From assembly GCA_017858055.1 (NCBI GenBank), contig JAFMCA010000005.1, positions 1 through 64,000 on the forward strand: a stretch of 64,000 nucleotides of DNA. The letters are read 5' to 3'. The notes beneath the pieces are model-generated. The model saw nothing but the letters and a program-made list of their open reading frames with translations, ran no database searches and had not been told where the DNA came from. The position numbers were made by a program, and so were the translations under genes. The stretch comes from Flavobacteriaceae bacterium. GTDB lineage: Bacteria > Bacteroidota > Bacteroidia > Flavobacteriales > Flavobacteriaceae. Shown one piece after another: positions 1,111 to 41,871 of this stretch (within the stretch, counting starts at the first letter, position 1; each line of letters opens with the position of its first letter).

Positions 1111-1851
1111 CTATCTTGTACCCGTAATGAATTCCATAATTACGCGATTCGAAAATCCATTGGGTAATTGACTTAAAAGTTTTTCAAACATATCAGGTTT
1201 TACAACATCCAATACACCTTTGTTCATAAGATGTTCCAGCGCTTGCTGAGCGGTTTCATAGACATCCCAAAAAAATAATGGAGGAAAATCACTTCCTTGA
1301 GGATAGACTCTTGTGGCCATACCCCAACCAGCCATCCCAGACTTTTTCATATTACTTTTGAAACTATCCGAAATCTGATCGGCCAACTTTAATGCCTCAT
1401 TCATGTTTGATGGAGTAGCCCAATTTAATATCAAAAATTTCCCTGCTCTGTCTGAATCCATCCTTTTTTCGGTTTTGTAGAGAAAATCTCCAACAGGATA
1501 TCGTTTTACCCCATCATATAGTAATGCTGAAGGAACTCCGAACTTGCTTTCTGTTTCCCACCAACTTCCTGCATTCATCATCTGATCAACATCTTCATAT
1601 ACGTGAATCCACAAATAGCTAATTTTATCTGAAGCTCTTCCCCCATTTACTTTTTTCATCAGATACCAATCTTTTATAATCCCTTTGTCTTTGGCTTCTT
1701 GAGCAAGAGGAGTGGCGTATTTTTCCTCCAACATCTCAAATGTTTCAGCATTTTCGGGATCAATATCTACAGGCTGAAGTCTGAATACCTCTTGTGCGCT
1801 TAGTACGGAAATTGATAAAAGAAAGATTGAATAAAATAGTATATTTCTCAT
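1111..1851 (-). CDS. Exported protein of unknown function with two similar halves
   Basis: A 246-residue protein with a clear Sec signal peptide (residues 1-19, cleavage near SAQ-EV), so it is probably periplasmic. I do not recognise a named family. Two segments, about residues 52-95 and 165-210, share the pattern KxxG, Trp, a Val strand, then W..VYE, as if a roughly 110-residue alpha-beta module had been duplicated. This resembles a tandem dimeric alpha-beta barrel. The ATG follows an A-rich leader (CATAAATCAATTAAAT). The gene is monocistronic, with its own terminator 21 bp downstream. Confidence 0.7.
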   Translation of the reverse strand: MRNILFYSIFLLSISVLSAQEVFRLQPVDIDPENAETFEMLEEKYATPLAQEAKDKGIIKDWYLMKKVNGGRASDKISYLWIHVYEDVDQMMNAGSWWETESKFGVPSALLYDGVKRYPVGDFLYKTEKRMDSDRAGKFLILNWATPSNMNEALKLADQISDSFKSNMKKSGMAGWGMATRVYPQGSDFPPLFFWDVYETAQQALEHLMNKGVLDVVKPDMFEKLLSQLPNGFSNRVIMEFITGTR

Positions 1852-1975
1852 ATTTAATTGATTTATGGTTAATAATCATTCAATATAAAAAGTTTAAATC
1901 ATACTATTAATAAAATATTAATGAATTTGATATCCTACTACAATTTTAATAGCTTCGTTCTTACTTAATTTGTCA

Positions 1976-23705: not shown

Positions 23706-24452
23706 TTATTCTGGAAAGGTGACTTTAATGTTTTTATTTTCAATCAAAGAGACTTCGATTAAAGAATCTTTTTCAAAAAGCTGAGGTAAAGAATCCAACG
23801 AAATGAACTTTTGATAAGGTTTGTAGTTTACATAATCTTGGATACCTATTCCATTGATTTCTCTTGCATTTTGTACTTTACGGAATCGGGTACCTCCACC
23901 ATCCGTTAAATAATTGTATGCTAAATAAGCTATTTTATAGTCCTCTTGGCTTATCCAATACCGGTATTCGTCCTGAAAATCTTCCCCACCCCCTTCTTGA
24001 TTAAAAGTTATTTTAATGGTCCAATAGGTTTGTCCATTTATCGTACTAGGATTTAAAAGTTCCGCCTTAACCGCTGGATCTTGTAAAGGTTTGGGAAGTT
24101 GAAAAAAATACATTACGGAATTCAACGAATTGGAATACAGATTCTGAAGACTATCTTGAAGGGAAATTAATGTATCGTTTACCTTTCTTTTTAGTGGTTC
24201 TTCCGAACTCATCCTATCAAATATCACCTGATCATTCTTTATTGTTTGTCGAGTATAGGTGAAGGAAGCTCCATTTCTTTTTAAGAAGTAATGGTATTCT
24301 CTAAAATCAAATGAAATTTCAAAACGGTCGGAATCAAAGCCATAAGCCTCAACGGATTTTGCGATTATTTCTTCTGGAGTAGGGGTCAATGGAGTTTGAC
24401 AAGAAGCAAAGAAAATGAAGGTAAAAAAAATGAGTTTGTCAAAAGATATCAT
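23706..24452 (-). CDS. DUF6503-like lipoprotein (paralogue of 18683-19432)
   Basis: From ATG 24452 a 248-residue protein begins with a lipoprotein signal (LIFFTFIFFASC). The mature part shows the same order as the 18683 product: EEIIAKSVEAYG, a strand-rich region, SVMYFFQLPKPLQDPAVKAELL, then YWISQEDYKIAYLAYNY. These features match a LolA/LppX-like fold (DUF6503). The lipid or other ligand is unknown. It is divergent from trxB with two back-to-back -7 boxes between. The longer frame from 24494 lacks a proper signal and is rejected. Confidence 0.7.
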   Translation of the reverse strand: MISFDKLIFFTFIFFASCQTPLTPTPEEIIAKSVEAYGFDSDRFEISFDFREYHYFLKRNGASFTYTRQTIKNDQVIFDRMSSEEPLKRKVNDTLISLQDSLQNLYSNSLNSVMYFFQLPKPLQDPAVKAELLNPSTINGQTYWTIKITFNQEGGGEDFQDEYRYWISQEDYKIAYLAYNYLTDGGGTRFRKVQNAREINGIGIQDYVNYKPYQKFISLDSLPQLFEKDSLIEVSLIENKNIKVTFPE

Positions 24453-36974: not shown

Positions 36975-37607
36975 TTGATTACAGCAGATAGCACGAAAAT
37001 ATTGAAATTTCTTTTTGAAGAGGAGTTGCTCTCTGAAATCCAAAAAGTCAGCCAATTACAAAAAGTACCCAAGGGGGAAATCATGATTGACGTGGGAGAA
37101 CAAGTCAAGTTTATTCCCATATTGCTGGAGGGTGCCATAAAAATTGTTCGAGAAGATGAATCGGGAGAAGAAGTCCTTTTATATTATGTAGAATTTGGTA
37201 ATACCTGCGCGATGACATTGAATTGCTGTTTGGAAAATAGCACTAGTGAAATACGAGCAATTTGTGAAAAAGACACTTCTATTATTATGGTTCCCGTATC
37301 TTTTATGGATAAATGGCTGGTAAACTATCGGTCTTGGAGAAATTTTATTTTTCAAAACTATCAAGACCGACTTAACGAAATGCTCAAAGCTATCGACTCC
37401 CTTACCTTTTTAAAATTAGACGAACGTCTCCGAAACTACTTGAAAGAAAAAAGCAAGGTAGCCGACGATTCAACTTTAGAAGTAACGCATTTAGATATTG
37501 CAACCGATTTAAATTCTTCAAGGGTGGTAATTTCTAGGTTGTTAAAACAAATGGAAAATGAAGGAGAAGTTTCTTTGGGAAGAAATACAATTAAAATTAA
37601 GTATTAA
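36975..37607 (+). CDS. Crp/Fnr family transcriptional regulator with cysteine-rich sensor
   Basis: A 210-residue regulator. A cyclic-nucleotide-binding-like beta domain (about 12-120) is followed by a dimer helix and a Crp-type winged helix-turn-helix (about 145-210, HLDIATDLNSSRVVISRLLKQMENEG). No N-terminal FNR iron-sulfur cysteines are present, but Cys78, Cys84, Cys85 and Cys97 cluster in the sensor barrel (NTCAMTLNCCLEN and AIC). Start TTG at 36975. Two -7-like boxes (TAAATTTG at 36906 and 36941) lie upstream. The next genes handle sulfur compounds and carry palindromes in the spacing expected of its binding sites, so a reactive-sulfur sensor is the best guess. Confidence 0.88.
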   Translation: MITADSTKILKFLFEEELLSEIQKVSQLQKVPKGEIMIDVGEQVKFIPILLEGAIKIVREDESGEEVLLYYVEFGNTCAMTLNCCLENSTSEIRAICEKDTSIIMVPVSFMDKWLVNYRSWRNFIFQNYQDRLNEMLKAIDSLTFLKLDERLRNYLKEKSKVADDSTLEVTHLDIATDLNSSRVVISRLLKQMENEGEVSLGRNTIKIKY

Positions 37608-37626: not shown

Positions 37627-37642
37627 TGTAACAGATGTTACA
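37627..37642. promoter_or_regulatory. Crp/Fnr operator, perfect palindrome before the SulP gene
   Basis: TGTAACAGATGTTACA is a perfect 6-4-6 palindrome of the type bound by Crp/Fnr dimers. Its centre is 28.5 bp before the -7 box, about -40 from the inferred start, the position of class II activation. It lies 20 bp after the Crp/Fnr gene stop codon. A variant with the same spacing precedes the metallo-hydrolase gene. Confidence 0.7.
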
Positions 37643-37662
37643 TCCATAACAATAATCTGTTC

Positions 37663-37670
37663 TATTTTTG
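37663..37670 (+). promoter_or_regulatory. -7 box TATTTTTG of the SulP gene
   Basis: Exact TAnnTTTG match, 20 bp after the operator. It contains or adjoins the in-frame TGA at 37669-37671, so translation must begin downstream of it. Confidence 0.6.
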
Positions 37671-37683
37671 AGTAAAATTTAAG

Positions 37684-39408
37684 ATTCTGAAAAATTATTT
37701 TCCTTTTTTAAGTTGGATTTCAAGTTACCGACTAGACTCTTTCAAACCTGACTTACTTGCTGGTATTACAGTTGCTGTACTTCTGATTCCTCAAGGAATG
37801 GCTTATGCTTTAATCGCAGGTTTACCCCCTATCTATGGACTTTATGCGGCACTTACCCCACAAATCGTGTACGCTTTCCTTGGGACTTCAAGGCAACTTG
37901 CTGTAGGGCCGGTGGCAATGGATTCGCTTTTGGTGGCAGCTGGATTAAGTGCTCTAAGTATTGTGGATCCTAGTCAATACATCCAAATGGCTATACTGTT
38001 GGCTTTATTTATGGGAGTCATTCAATTTTTATTAGGGATGCTGCGAATGGGTTTTATTGTCTCCTATCTATCCAAACCTGTAATTAGCGGATTCACCTCA
38101 GCGGCTGCAATAATTATTGGGCTAAGTCAATTTAAACACCTTTTAGGAGTTTCGATCCCACAGAGCAACAAACTTCATGTGGTCATAAACTCTTTTTTGA
38201 ATACCTCCTCCCCCATTCAATTTCAAACTTTTCTAATAGGAATTGTAGGGATTCTTATGATTGTACTTATTAAAAAATGGAGTCCAAAATTTCCTTCAGC
38301 TCTTTTGGCGGTAATCGTAGGTATTGCTTGGGTTTATTTTAATCAGTTAAATGAAAAAGGGGTAGAGGTTGTAGGATTAATCCCACAAGGACTTCCCTCT
38401 TTTCAAATCGTGTCTTTTGAAATAGAAACCGTAAAACAATTATTCCCAACTGCTTTAACCCTCGCTTTGGTTGCATTTATGGAAGCGATCTCTGTAGCCA
38501 AAGCCATTGAGGAAAAGCACAAAACCTATCACATTGACCCAAATCAAGAACTTCTTGCTTTAGGAACTGCAAACGTTATTGGTTCCTTCTTTCAATCCTA
38601 TCCCACTACAGGTGGATTTTCAAGAACAGCTGTCAACGATCAGGCTGGAGCCAAAACGGGAATGGCGGCTCTGATTACTGCGACTATAGTTGGTTTAATC
38701 CTTTTGTTTTTCACCCATTGGTTTTTTTACTTACCCAAATCAATCTTAGCAGCAATTATCATTGTAGCTGTTTTCAATTTGATTGACTTTAAGTTTGCAA
38801 TACGTCTATTCAAAAACAGAAAAGATGAATTTATCGTTTTATTACTCACCTTTTTATTCACCTTGTTTATAGGTATCACAGAGGGTATACTATTTGGAGT
38901 AGTCCTATCGCTTCTTTTGCTAGTATTCAGAGCTTCAAAACCACATTACGCTTTCTTAGGCAGAATCGGAACCACAAATTATTTTAAAAACATCGATCGT
39001 TTTTCGGATGAAGTGGTCCATCGGGATGATCTTATTATTTTGCGGTTTGATGCACAATTGTTTTTTGGAAATATTGAGTATTTCAAAAAACTTGTAGAAA
39101 AGGCTATCCATGCAAAAGAAAAAACAATAAAAGGCTTTATCATCAACGCTCGTGCCATCAATTATATTGATATAACCGCCTCAGAACAACTTTACGATCT
39201 AATTGCATCATTACAGAAAAAAGGAATTCGCGTAATGATAGTTGGTGCTATTGGACCTGCAAGGGATTTAATTTTAAAAAGCAATATCATTACCATTCTT
39301 AAAAAACAAAATCTATTTATCACCTCAGGTGACGCAACCGATAATTTTGATGGATTAACAAAAAAAACCCCTTTGCAAAAAAAAATAAGTAGACAAACAA
39401 ATTCCTAA
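37684..39408 (+). CDS. SulP family transporter in the sulfur cluster, non-standard start
   Basis: A SulP/SLC26 carrier. The first ATG, 37798, falls inside helix 1. Upstream in frame, ATT 37684 then LKNYFPFLSWISSYRLDSFKPDLLAGITVAVLLIPQGM reproduces the usual N-terminus, and the frame is closed by TGA at 37669. So translation probably begins at ATT 37684 or CTG 37687, giving about 574 residues. Also seen are AGLPPIYGLYAALTPQ, TGGFSRTAVN and a STAS domain (about 470-560) with YIDITAS. Sulfate, sulfite or bicarbonate could be the substrate; the surrounding genes favour a sulfur oxyanion. Controlled by the palindrome at 37627. Confidence 0.88.
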   Translation: MLKNYFPFLSWISSYRLDSFKPDLLAGITVAVLLIPQGMAYALIAGLPPIYGLYAALTPQIVYAFLGTSRQLAVGPVAMDSLLVAAGLSALSIVDPSQYIQMAILLALFMGVIQFLLGMLRMGFIVSYLSKPVISGFTSAAAIIIGLSQFKHLLGVSIPQSNKLHVVINSFLNTSSPIQFQTFLIGIVGILMIVLIKKWSPKFPSALLAVIVGIAWVYFNQLNEKGVEVVGLIPQGLPSFQIVSFEIETVKQLFPTALTLALVAFMEAISVAKAIEEKHKTYHIDPNQELLALGTANVIGSFFQSYPTTGGFSRTAVNDQAGAKTGMAALITATIVGLILLFFTHWFFYLPKSILAAIIIVAVFNLIDFKFAIRLFKNRKDEFIVLLLTFLFTLFIGITEGILFGVVLSLLLLVFRASKPHYAFLGRIGTTNYFKNIDRFSDEVVHRDDLIILRFDAQLFFGNIEYFKKLVEKAIHAKEKTIKGFIINARAINYIDITASEQLYDLIASLQKKGIRVMIVGAIGPARDLILKSNIITILKKQNLFITSGDATDNFDGLTKKTPLQKKISRQTNS

Positions 39409-39414
39409 GGGTTC

Positions 39415-39430
39415 TGTAACATCGATTACA
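39415..39430. promoter_or_regulatory. Crp/Fnr operator variant before the metallo-hydrolase gene
   Basis: TGTAACATCGATTACA matches the 37627 site in 12 of 16 positions, with TGTAA and TTACA arms intact. Its end is 20 bp before the -7-like TAATTTTA at 39451-39458, exactly as at the first site. Confidence 0.65.
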
Positions 39431-39450
39431 TACAACTAAATCATTAATCG

Positions 39451-39458
39451 TAATTTTA
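39451..39458 (+). promoter_or_regulatory. -7-like box TAATTTTA
   Basis: Differs from TAnnTTTG in the last base. It lies 16 bases before ATG 39475 and at the conserved distance from the palindrome. Confidence 0.5.
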
Positions 39459-39474
39459 CTTAAAATTAAATACC

Positions 39475-40884
39475 ATGAAAATCGAACAAATTTATACCGG
39501 CTGCCTTTCACAAGGAGCTTATTATATTGAAAGTAACGGGGAAGCAGCAATCATTGATCCCCTCAGAGAAGTCGCTCCTTACATTGAAAAGGCCTTAAAA
39601 AATAAAGCCACTATAAAATATATTTTTGAAACTCATTTTCATGCCGATTTTGTAAGCGGTCACGTAACGTTAGCAAAAGAAACGGGGGCTACAATTGTTT
39701 ATGGACCTCAAGCAAAAACTGGATTTGAATCCCTGATTGCAAAAGATCAACAAGAATTTAAAATTGGGGACATCACGCTGACCGTTTTGCATACTCCTGG
39801 ACATACGATGGAAAGCACCACCTATCTACTTCGAGATGAAAATCGCAAAGATATTGCCATTTTTAGTGGTGATACGCTATTCTTAGGTGATGTTGGACGT
39901 CCAGATCTCGCTCAAAAAGCAGCCGATTTAACCCAAGAAGATCTTGCAGGAATACTATATGACAGTCTGCGTAAAAAAATCATGCCTCTGGCAGATGATG
40001 TTCTTGTATATCCAGCTCATGGTGCAGGTTCTGCTTGTGGTAAAAACCTAAGTAAAGAAACCGTGGGCACATTAGGGGAACAGAAGAAAACAAACTACGC
40101 CCTTCGCGCAGACATGACCAAAGAAGAATTCATTAAAGAAGTTACGGAGGGTTTACTCCCACCACCTCAATACTTTCCTTTGAATGTAAAAATGAATAAG
40201 GAGGGATATGAAGACATTCAGGATGTCTTGGAATCTGGCACACGTCCTCTTTCCGCTGAGGCTTTTGAAGTTGCAGCAAATGAGACAGGGGCAGTCATTC
40301 TCGATGTAAGACATCAAGACGAATTCGCCAAAGGACATATTCCTCAATCGATTTTTATCGGGATAGATGGTGGTTTTGCTCCCTGGGTCGGTGCCCTCGT
40401 AGGGAATGTTAAACAAGCTATATTATTAGTTACTCCAGAAGGTAGAGAAGAAGAAACTGTAACTCGTTTAGCACGTGTTGGCTTCGACAATACCCTTGGT
40501 TATCTTAAAGGCGGTGTTGAGGCTTGGAAAAAAGAAGGAAAACAATTGGATGCTGTAGAGGGGATTGAAACTACTGAATTAAAAAGTAGAATGGAAGCCA
40601 ATGAACTCGAGATTTTTGATGTGCGTAAGCCAGGTGAATTCCTTTCAGAACATATTCCAAATGCACACAATACGCCCCTAGACTTTATTAACGAACATAT
40701 GGCTGAATTTCCGTCAAAAAACCCCTTTTACGTTCATTGCGCTGGCGGATATCGCAGTATGATTGCTGCTTCGATTCTAAAAAGCAGGGGGATTCACAAT
40801 TTAATTGACATTAAGGGTGGATTTGCAAAAATCAAAGAAACTGGAATCGAAGTATCGGATTACATTTGTCCTTCAACACTATAA
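39475..40884 (+). CDS. Metallo-hydrolase with two rhodanese domains (persulfide-type)
   Basis: A 469-residue protein. A metallo-beta-lactamase domain (about 1-240) has THFHADFVSGH (His54, His56, Asp58), HTPGHT, SGDTLFLGDVGRPD and PAHGAGSACG, as in ETHE1-like persulfide dioxygenases. The first rhodanese module (about 265-350) lacks the catalytic Cys: its loop reads VTPEGREE. The second (about 370-465) has HCAGGYRS with Cys422, followed by a further Cys465 at the end. No signal peptide, so it is cytoplasmic. It probably oxidises or transfers sulfane sulfur. First gene of the unit with the YeeE/YedE pair. Confidence 0.9.
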   Translation: MKIEQIYTGCLSQGAYYIESNGEAAIIDPLREVAPYIEKALKNKATIKYIFETHFHADFVSGHVTLAKETGATIVYGPQAKTGFESLIAKDQQEFKIGDITLTVLHTPGHTMESTTYLLRDENRKDIAIFSGDTLFLGDVGRPDLAQKAADLTQEDLAGILYDSLRKKIMPLADDVLVYPAHGAGSACGKNLSKETVGTLGEQKKTNYALRADMTKEEFIKEVTEGLLPPPQYFPLNVKMNKEGYEDIQDVLESGTRPLSAEAFEVAANETGAVILDVRHQDEFAKGHIPQSIFIGIDGGFAPWVGALVGNVKQAILLVTPEGREEETVTRLARVGFDNTLGYLKGGVEAWKKEGKQLDAVEGIETTELKSRMEANELEIFDVRKPGEFLSEHIPNAHNTPLDFINEHMAEFPSKNPFYVHCAGGYRSMIAASILKSRGIHNLIDIKGGFAKIKETGIEVSDYICPSTL

Positions 40885-40896
40885 ATACTTTAAATA

Positions 40897-41454
40897 ATGG
40901 AATGGATTTTTAAACCCTGGCCTTGGTTTATCGGTGGGCCAATGATAGCACTTGTGCTCTTTTTACTCCTCTATTTTGGAAAAAACTTTGGAATGTCCTC
41001 GAACTTAAGAACACTCTGTACAATTTGTGGGGCAGGAAAATCCTCAGAATTTTTCAATTTCGATTGGAAAAAACAACAATGGAACCTGATGGTCTCTCTG
41101 GGAGCCATTCTGGGTGGTGGAATTGCATCCCAATGGTTAAGTCTGGATTCCAGTGTGCTAATTCACCCCGATACGATTGCTAAACTTCAGGAACTCAACA
41201 TAGAAAGTGCTGGAACGGCATATCTCCCTGATGAGCTTTTTAGTTTAGAAGCGCTCCTCCAACCCAAAGTGTTGTTGATCTTAGCAATTGGAGGTTTTTT
41301 AGTAGGATTTGGCGCTCGCTATGCTGGAGGATGTACTTCAGGACATGCCATTTCAGGCTTGAGCAATCTTCAATTGGTATCTCTTTACGCCGTCATTGGA
41401 TTTTTTGCTGGCGGACTATTAATGAATCACTTTTTACTTCCCTATATACTCTAA
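40897..41454 (+). CDS. YeeE/YedE family protein, N-terminal half (thiosulfate-type transporter)
   Basis: A 185-residue membrane protein with about four spans. The motif GFGARYAGGCTSGHAISG with Cys146 is the conserved transport cysteine region of YeeE/TsuA. Cys41 and Cys44 (CTICG) lie near the N-terminus. Known YeeE proteins take up thiosulfate. Here the transporter is split over two genes; the next begins 3 bp later. It is 12 bp after the metallo-hydrolase gene and shares its promoter. Confidence 0.88.
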   Translation: MEWIFKPWPWFIGGPMIALVLFLLLYFGKNFGMSSNLRTLCTICGAGKSSEFFNFDWKKQQWNLMVSLGAILGGGIASQWLSLDSSVLIHPDTIAKLQELNIESAGTAYLPDELFSLEALLQPKVLLILAIGGFLVGFGARYAGGCTSGHAISGLSNLQLVSLYAVIGFFAGGLLMNHFLLPYIL

Positions 41455-41457
41455 GCT

Positions 41458-41871
41458 ATGAGACAACTTATATTTTTATTTATCGGAATTCTTTTTGGAA
41501 TTACTATGTACAAATCTGAAGCAGCCTCATGGTTTAGAATTTATGAAATGTTTCAATTCAAATCCTTTCATATGTATGGAATTATCGGGTCTGCACTCGT
41601 CCTGGGCGTATTGATGATTCAACTCATCAAACGCAACAAAATAAAATCTGCTTTTGGTGAAACAATCTCCATTCCAGATAAAGAAAAAAGCTTTTATCGT
41701 TATGCTTACGGAGGTATCCTCTTTGGTTTAGGCTGGGCTCTGGCAGGTGCTTGTCCTGGTCCCATGTTTACTCTATTAGGCGCTGGTTTTTACTCTATTC
41801 TTGTTGTTATCTTTTTTGCTGTTTTGGGGACATGGGTTTATGGACGAATCGCTAGTAAATTGCCTCACTAG
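41458..41871 (+). CDS. YeeE/YedE family protein, C-terminal half (DUF6691 type)
   Basis: A 137-residue membrane protein with three to four spans. GLGWALAGACPGPMFTLLGAG, with Cys99, is the second conserved cysteine motif of YeeE-type transporters. It presumably pairs with the 185-residue protein to make one thiosulfate or related sulfur-anion channel. Last gene of the sulfur cluster. Confidence 0.87.
   Translation: MRQLIFLFIGILFGITMYKSEAASWFRIYEMFQFKSFHMYGIIGSALVLGVLMIQLIKRNKIKSAFGETISIPDKEKSFYRYAYGGILFGLGWALAGACPGPMFTLLGAGFYSILVVIFFAVLGTWVYGRIASKLPH

Follow-up and report, generated by a model that had tools for sequence, protein, structure and literature searches.

The Crp/Fnr-type regulator encoded at positions 36975 to 37607 in this Flavobacteriaceae bacterium very probably binds the palindrome TGTAAC-N4-GTTACA at a fixed promoter distance, switching on genes for sulfide and persulfide handling. 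The window, meaning the whole 64,000-nucleotide stretch that was analyzed, contains two of the sites at which it would act. We consider it probable, from all of the evidence together, that the protein is a Crp/Fnr class II activator that controls two sulfur transcription units and a small RNA (sRNA) in response to a reactive-sulfur signal received via Cys78, Cys84, and Cys85.

The regulator gene lies on the plus strand, and its 210-aa product matches Pfam cNMP_binding and HTH_Crp_2 above the cut-offs. It is followed on the same strand by a gene for a SulP-family anion permease with a STAS domain (37687 to 39408; TIGR00815 at 488 bits versus a cut-off of 380, with Pfam support). The next gene (39475 to 40884) encodes a putative persulfide-dioxygenase-like protein with an MBL fold and rhodanese domains, a function predicted from Pfam Lactamase_B and two Rhodanese stretches; its NCBIfam matches to Blh/GloB were weak and below the cut-off. 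Two halves of a YeeE/YedE-type sulfur transport protein then follow on the plus strand, half 1 at 40897 to 41454 (PF04143) and half 2 at 41458 to 41871 (Pfam DUF6691/PF04143). The SulP gene apparently starts with CTG at 37687, and a call restricted to ATG moves its start to 37798. At the conserved start (window positions 37684 to 37689), many members of the genus have no ATG, GTG, or TTG, and the codon there is CTG; TTG is found in loci L164 and L166 to L168 and ATG in L053. The conserved CTG codon suggests a CTG start with a very short leader.

The sequence-only reading had claimed palindromes at 37627 to 37642 and at 39415 to 39430, and both are present. Operator 1, TGTAACAGATGTTACA, is a perfect palindrome with a predicted center at -40.5, and operator 2, TGTAACATCGATTACA, has one mismatch to the full palindrome; neither is assigned to a strand. 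No other full match to TGTAACN5TTACA exists in the window, in agreement with the sequence-only reading, which had noticed no further site of this form. The -7 box of the SulP promoter, TATTTTTG (37663 to 37670, plus strand), has a predicted transcription start at about 37675, and that of the MBL-rhodanese promoter is TAATTTTA (39451 to 39458, plus strand). Since the boxes start at 37663 and 39451, both palindrome-box spacers are exactly 20 bases, as had been proposed, and both boxes have the form TAnnTTT(G/A). When two mismatches were allowed, the frequency of the motif in the window was not above chance, so the signal comes from the exact matches and from where they stand.

A scan of the bacterium's own genome (2.0 Mb), one of the checks proposed with the original claim, gave six sites with at most one mismatch to TGTAACN4GTTACA. 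Three of them carry a box at +20: the window sites at 37627 and 39415 and a site at contig 59:23747. The other three, each with one mismatch (two on contig 25 and one on contig 48), were rejected as operators, being boxless and within open reading frames. For the combined pattern of palindrome, 20 bp, and TAnnTTTG, the three positioned sites were among the four best matches in the genome. A further site at contig 27:49417 (locus L314), TGTAACCTAAATTACC, has two mismatches and is followed at +20 by TATTTTTG, upstream of a membrane protein gene. It is a weak candidate only, because the three-mismatch search returned seven matches versus five in the control.

The proposed check in related genomes gave the same picture, since orthologous clusters keep both the palindrome and its spacing. 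In 60 regulator orthologue loci drawn from the genus, family, and order of this bacterium (45 to 84% identity), palindromes recur directly 3' of the regulator gene and also upstream of SulP, MBL-rhodanese, and YeeE genes. A TAnnTTT box stands at +20 or +21 from 61 of the 71 sites found there with at most one mismatch, and the wider family shows spacings of 20 or 21. By comparison, 52 shuffled decoy palindromes of the same letters gave a mean of 1.9 sites in these loci and 0.04 sites with a box. A second, partly overlapping set comprised 80 loci surrounding the MBL-rhodanese gene, many of them from named species. In this set, a positioned site was present in 42 of the 55 loci that hold the regulator versus 10 of the 25 without a regulator within the stretch examined. 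No nearby site was detected in the remaining 13 of those 55 loci or in some orthologue loci (e.g., L072, L078, and L094). Distant members of the phylum (f37, L336, and L338 to L340) have a palindrome behind the regulator but no box at +20 or +21.

Some genomes of the genus do not have the regulator and still show the gene order TopA-SulP-MBL-MiaB. The pre-SulP palindrome (at most one mismatch, box in register) was found in 18 of 18 genomes with the regulator and in 1 of 15 without it (Fisher P = 1.8e-8, kinship ignored). No call was possible for G005 and G030, and gene absence from incomplete metagenome-assembled genomes may mimic loss. On a tree of SulP plus MBL, the regulator label changes 5 times, or about 4 times when G005 is omitted, suggesting that the regulator was lost independently about four times in the genus. 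The palindrome goes with the regulator in nearly all independent pairs, which are too few for significance in a sign test. Genomes without the regulator usually retain the SulP -7 box, and one exception, G001 (L167), also retains TGTGACAAAAGTTACA in register. The counterpart of operator 2 (at most three mismatches, box in register) is present in 11 of 18 regulator-positive genomes, a weaker pattern than that of operator 1. In genomes without it, SulP and MBL are often separated by no more than about 25 to 31 nt, so the two genes probably form a single unit in those genomes. YeeE1 and YeeE2 were lost together with the regulator in all 15 checkable genomes (regulator-less loci, L158 to L173), whereas SulP and MBL-rhodanese stay. 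This joint disappearance links the regulator to the import or disposal of sulfur.

The AlphaFold2 model of the regulator (pLDDT 89) has Crp, NtcA, and FNR as its nearest structures (fold search E value of about 1e-13), and PF00027 and PF13545 both score above their cut-offs, as in the Crp/Fnr superfamily. The palindromes, in the frame TGTNA-N6-TNACA and at a fixed promoter position, represent an operator of the type expected for this superfamily. The protein is the only match to PF13545 (Crp-type HTH) found in its own genome, which is 96% complete. It belongs to none of the familiar equivalogs: it scored 40.4 bits against the cAMP-CRP model PRK11753 (cut-off, 266) and 31.5 bits against the NtcA model TIGR03697 (cut-off, 244.95), and it has no cysteine before residue 78, so that the N-terminal [4Fe-4S] cysteine cluster of FNR is absent. 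The CRP pocket segment is poorly conserved, and CAMTLxCC (CX5CC) stands in its place. The only cysteines are Cys78, Cys84, Cys85, and Cys97. Cys78 was present in 61 of 61 orthologues and Cys84 and Cys85 in 56 of 61 each, five orthologues being without one or both of the latter; Cys97 occurs in the genus. In the model, Cys78, Cys84, and Cys85 are within or beside a short helix (residues 82 to 85) in the region aligned to the CRP phosphate-binding cassette.

The recognition helix reads SRVVISR, and orthologues with SRVV(I/V)SR helices are accompanied by TGTAAC half-sites. SREV(I)(S/T)R helices with adjoining TGTGAC palindromes were found in a few cases, namely, three second paralogues found within the genus and a single relative at class level. 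The recognition-helix residue thus appears to match the fourth half-site base, in agreement with the known contrast between CRP and NtcA in helix and half-site. The second paralogues, at L262, L264, and L266, are 32 to 36% identical to the regulator, with SREVISR or SREVITR helices and TGTGAC palindromes, and each has a copy of the sRNA described below directly 3'.

A study of Flavobacterium psychrophilum maps TAnnTTTG to -12 to -5 (PMC9723704). With the box placed accordingly, the predicted center of the window palindromes is -40.5 and their last base is at -33; at promoters with a 21-bp spacer, the published box position gives a predicted center of -41.5. The sequence-only reading had put the center near -40, which is close to the predicted value, and a position of -40.5 or -41.5 fits class II activation. 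Direct activation at these sites is highly probable on this evidence, and it is supported by the conservation of site and spacing, the loss of the site with the regulator, the single Crp HTH, the match between helix and base, and the class II position. The earlier suggestion that the regulator probably activates both window units is thereby strengthened, and the candidate regulon extends beyond them. In the mechanism that we propose, the 36975-37607 product, presumably as a homodimer, would bind TGTAAC-N4-GTTACA centered at -40.5 (-41.5 at 21-bp promoters) and act as a class II activator that recruits RNA polymerase, the last operator base lying at about -33. The regulon in this genome would consist of the SulP unit, the MBL-rhodanese-YeeE/YedE unit, and the sRNA, and in relatives it would cover genes for sulfide and persulfide oxidation and export.

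If the box occupies -12 to -5, the operator ends at about -33, and a protein bound there could act as a repressor that overlaps the -33 region and is released by the signal. We regard this as improbable, since a distance of 20 or 21 bp in 61 of 71 sites is a mark of class II activation and a repressor would be expected to work at other positions too. The sites lie downstream of the Crp gene rather than before it and hence give no autoregulatory tie, which leaves some room for a different DNA-binding protein as the reader of the palindromes, with the Crp gene as a bystander. That reading is more improbable still: the genome yielded a single Crp HTH, the palindrome disappears along with the regulator, and the helix residue covaries with the half-site base. 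As for coincidence, the motif at two mismatches is indeed no commoner in the window than expected; yet the decoys, the conservation among orthologues, and the replication in the second locus set refute it, leaving it a negligible probability and bearing out the initial judgment that the fixed spacing is hardly due to chance.

Regulon content was surveyed with the 61 first-downstream proteins after positioned sites across Flavobacteriaceae. Rhodanese (19), MBL (14), TauE (10), SulP (8), and Sulf_transp (6) proteins were recovered, together with one or a few examples each of a type III-like SQR, a SorA-like sulfite dehydrogenase, NrfD/Fer4, AhpC (peroxiredoxin), and thioredoxin; cytochrome bd I (2) and cytochrome c also follow positioned sites. 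Persulfide-dioxygenase-like and YeeE/YedE genes are among those preceded by such sites. Most loci were picked by their regulator, so cluster genes are overrepresented and off-cluster genes are more telling. In Acinetobacter, a yeeE-yedE-pdo2 operon is controlled by the persulfide sensor BigR (PMC7315123). The gene set found here resembles this operon and the SQR-PDO-TauE systems under BigR/FisR control (PMC7315123), which makes persulfide our preferred reading of the signal, although we lean only slightly toward it. The signal would most likely be a reactive sulfur species, such as sulfide-derived persulfide, read by Cys78, Cys84, and Cys85 in the former ligand pocket.

The same regulator and operators could instead serve a response to oxygen or redox state, NO, or a metal, the CX5CC motif undergoing thiol oxidation or carrying an Fe-S cluster, with the sulfur genes as only part of a redox response. 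The cytochrome bd, cytochrome c, peroxiredoxin, and thioredoxin genes behind positioned sites favor such a signal. Cytochrome bd, a sulfide-resistant oxidase, is compatible with a sulfide response too. PgRsp of Porphyromonas, also a Crp/Fnr protein, has been described as a heme-binding redox sensor (PMC12040651). Against this stand a regulon devoted mostly to persulfide and sulfite handling and the absence of the FNR N-terminal cysteine cluster from a protein whose only cysteines are at 78, 84, 85, and 97. A redox, NO, or metal signal is therefore rather unlikely, though far from negligible.

The regulator apparently also switches on a small RNA in this bacterium, a prediction drawn from the third positioned site. 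This site, TGTAACTTTTGTCACA, lies on contig 59, outside the window, with TAAATTTG at +20. It is followed by a stem-loop, the exposed segment GGTTTATGGTTA, and a terminator hairpin, features on which a putative sRNA of about 75 nt was called at 23791 to 23864. Site and sRNA together span contig 59:23747-23864 (L180:4748-4865), with homologues in L174, L175, L176, L203 to L210, L262, L264, and L266. A sulfatase gene about 200 nt 3' of the site was dropped as a target because the sRNA terminator comes before it. Rfam contained no family for the sRNA and returned one spurious match, to mir-393 (E value, 0.15). Related copies are present in 34 of 38 genus genomes versus 3 of 119 others in the family, and the sRNA is multicopy. 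The core copy has no palindrome. Five regulator-positive genomes (this one, G003, G024, G031, and G033) have copies that follow a palindrome of the TGTAAC type and a box, and no such copy was seen in a genus genome without the regulator. Other copies, in G003, G022, and G027, lie behind the SREVISR/SREVITR paralogue with TGTGAC palindromes; the box is at +20 in G022 and not at 20 or 21 in G003 and G027. Changes on both sides were seen in six of the 16 predicted base pairs, each of the six within the terminator stem.

The complement of the exposed segment, TAACCATAAA(C/T)CAATT, occurs a few bases upstream of ATG. This pre-ATG motif was found at about 131 places in 38 genomes, roughly ten of them sRNA genes, versus none for the reversed pattern. 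In the bacterium's own genome, the predicted target motif lies upstream of about ten genes, most of whose products look secreted and have no Pfam family. One predicted pairing site in the window, TAACCATAAATCAATT (1856 to 1871, minus strand), lies in a 5' untranslated region (5'UTR), 4 nt before the ATG of the minus-strand gene at 1114 to 1851. A near-identical 5'UTR, TATTAACCATAAATCAATTAAAATG (window positions 1850 to 1890, minus strand; L212 to L217; many genus genomes), heads apparently unrelated genes. It is complementary to the sRNA, and most of the proteins encoded behind it look secreted and match no Pfam family. Predicted sRNA-target duplex energies were well below the shuffled-target mean and nearly always beyond the best of 200 shuffles. 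Several sRNA-bearing genomes have no target by the strict pattern, and G029 has targets with no sRNA detected, so the sRNA-target link is a prediction. Tentatively, a Bacteroidota Crp/Fnr lineage may have converted its nucleotide pocket to the sensing of reactive sulfur species through cysteines, with one operator geometry commanding both persulfide-disposal genes and, in one marine genus, a copy of the multicopy sRNA, whose exposed seed is complementary to about ten 5'UTRs, mostly of secreted proteins. Because other sRNA copies lie behind the TGTGAC-type Crp/Fnr paralogue, paralogous sensors may feed a shared RNA output.

The proposed system shares parts with several known ones. Like Escherichia coli CRP, it has the Crp fold, the 16-bp operator frame TGTNA-N6-TNACA, and a predicted position near -41.5, but its half-site is TGTAAC, where that of CRP is TGTGA. 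Cyanobacterial NtcA, which binds sites of the TGTA-N8-TACA type, is among its best PDB relatives and shares that operator type and the SRV recognition helix; the regulon differs, however, and the regulator falls below the NtcA cut-off. BigR and FisR control genes of the kinds predicted here, for persulfide dioxygenase, YeeE/YedE, SQR, and TauE (PMC7315123). Unlike the present regulator, they are of the ArsR-type repressor or sigma54 activator kind rather than Crp/Fnr proteins, and the thiol chemistry of our regulator is a candidate feature. SqrR and CstR are further persulfide sensors. FopS and GibS of Bacteroides thetaiotaomicron are also multicopy sRNAs, of about 65 to 75 nt, that pair at the start regions of several mRNAs (PMC11697453), a pairing that is predicted here. 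They belong to a distant branch of the Bacteroidota and share an R1 seed and SusC targets; the likeness drawn here is one of architecture and start-codon pairing. Unlike them, the contig 59 copy lies behind a Crp/Fnr operator. Rfp18 of F. psychrophilum is a genus-conserved sRNA with several mRNAs of secreted proteins as predicted targets, and no Crp/Fnr control of it was seen in that report (PMC9723704). Some flavobacterial Crp/Fnr homologues have been placed in a MalR-like group, and no sulfur role for them was seen in that paper (PMC8510549).

We found no publication on the motif, on a Crp/Fnr sulfur regulator, or on flavobacterial counterparts in a literature mostly excluding subscription journals, and a Crp/Fnr-type sulfur activator of marine flavobacteria is apparently new. 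Flavobacteria are major marine degraders, and sulfide and persulfide sensing and its regulation in Bacteroidota are undescribed as far as we found. Tests in cultured species are now within reach, as the operator, the promoter geometry, the regulon, and the candidate sensing residues have been defined closely enough, and the regulator and positioned sites co-occur in Flagellimonas, Maribacter, Aquimarina, Croceivirga, and Flavobacterium lacus. The linked sRNA is a concrete lead to the control of a small RNA by a transcription factor in this clade.
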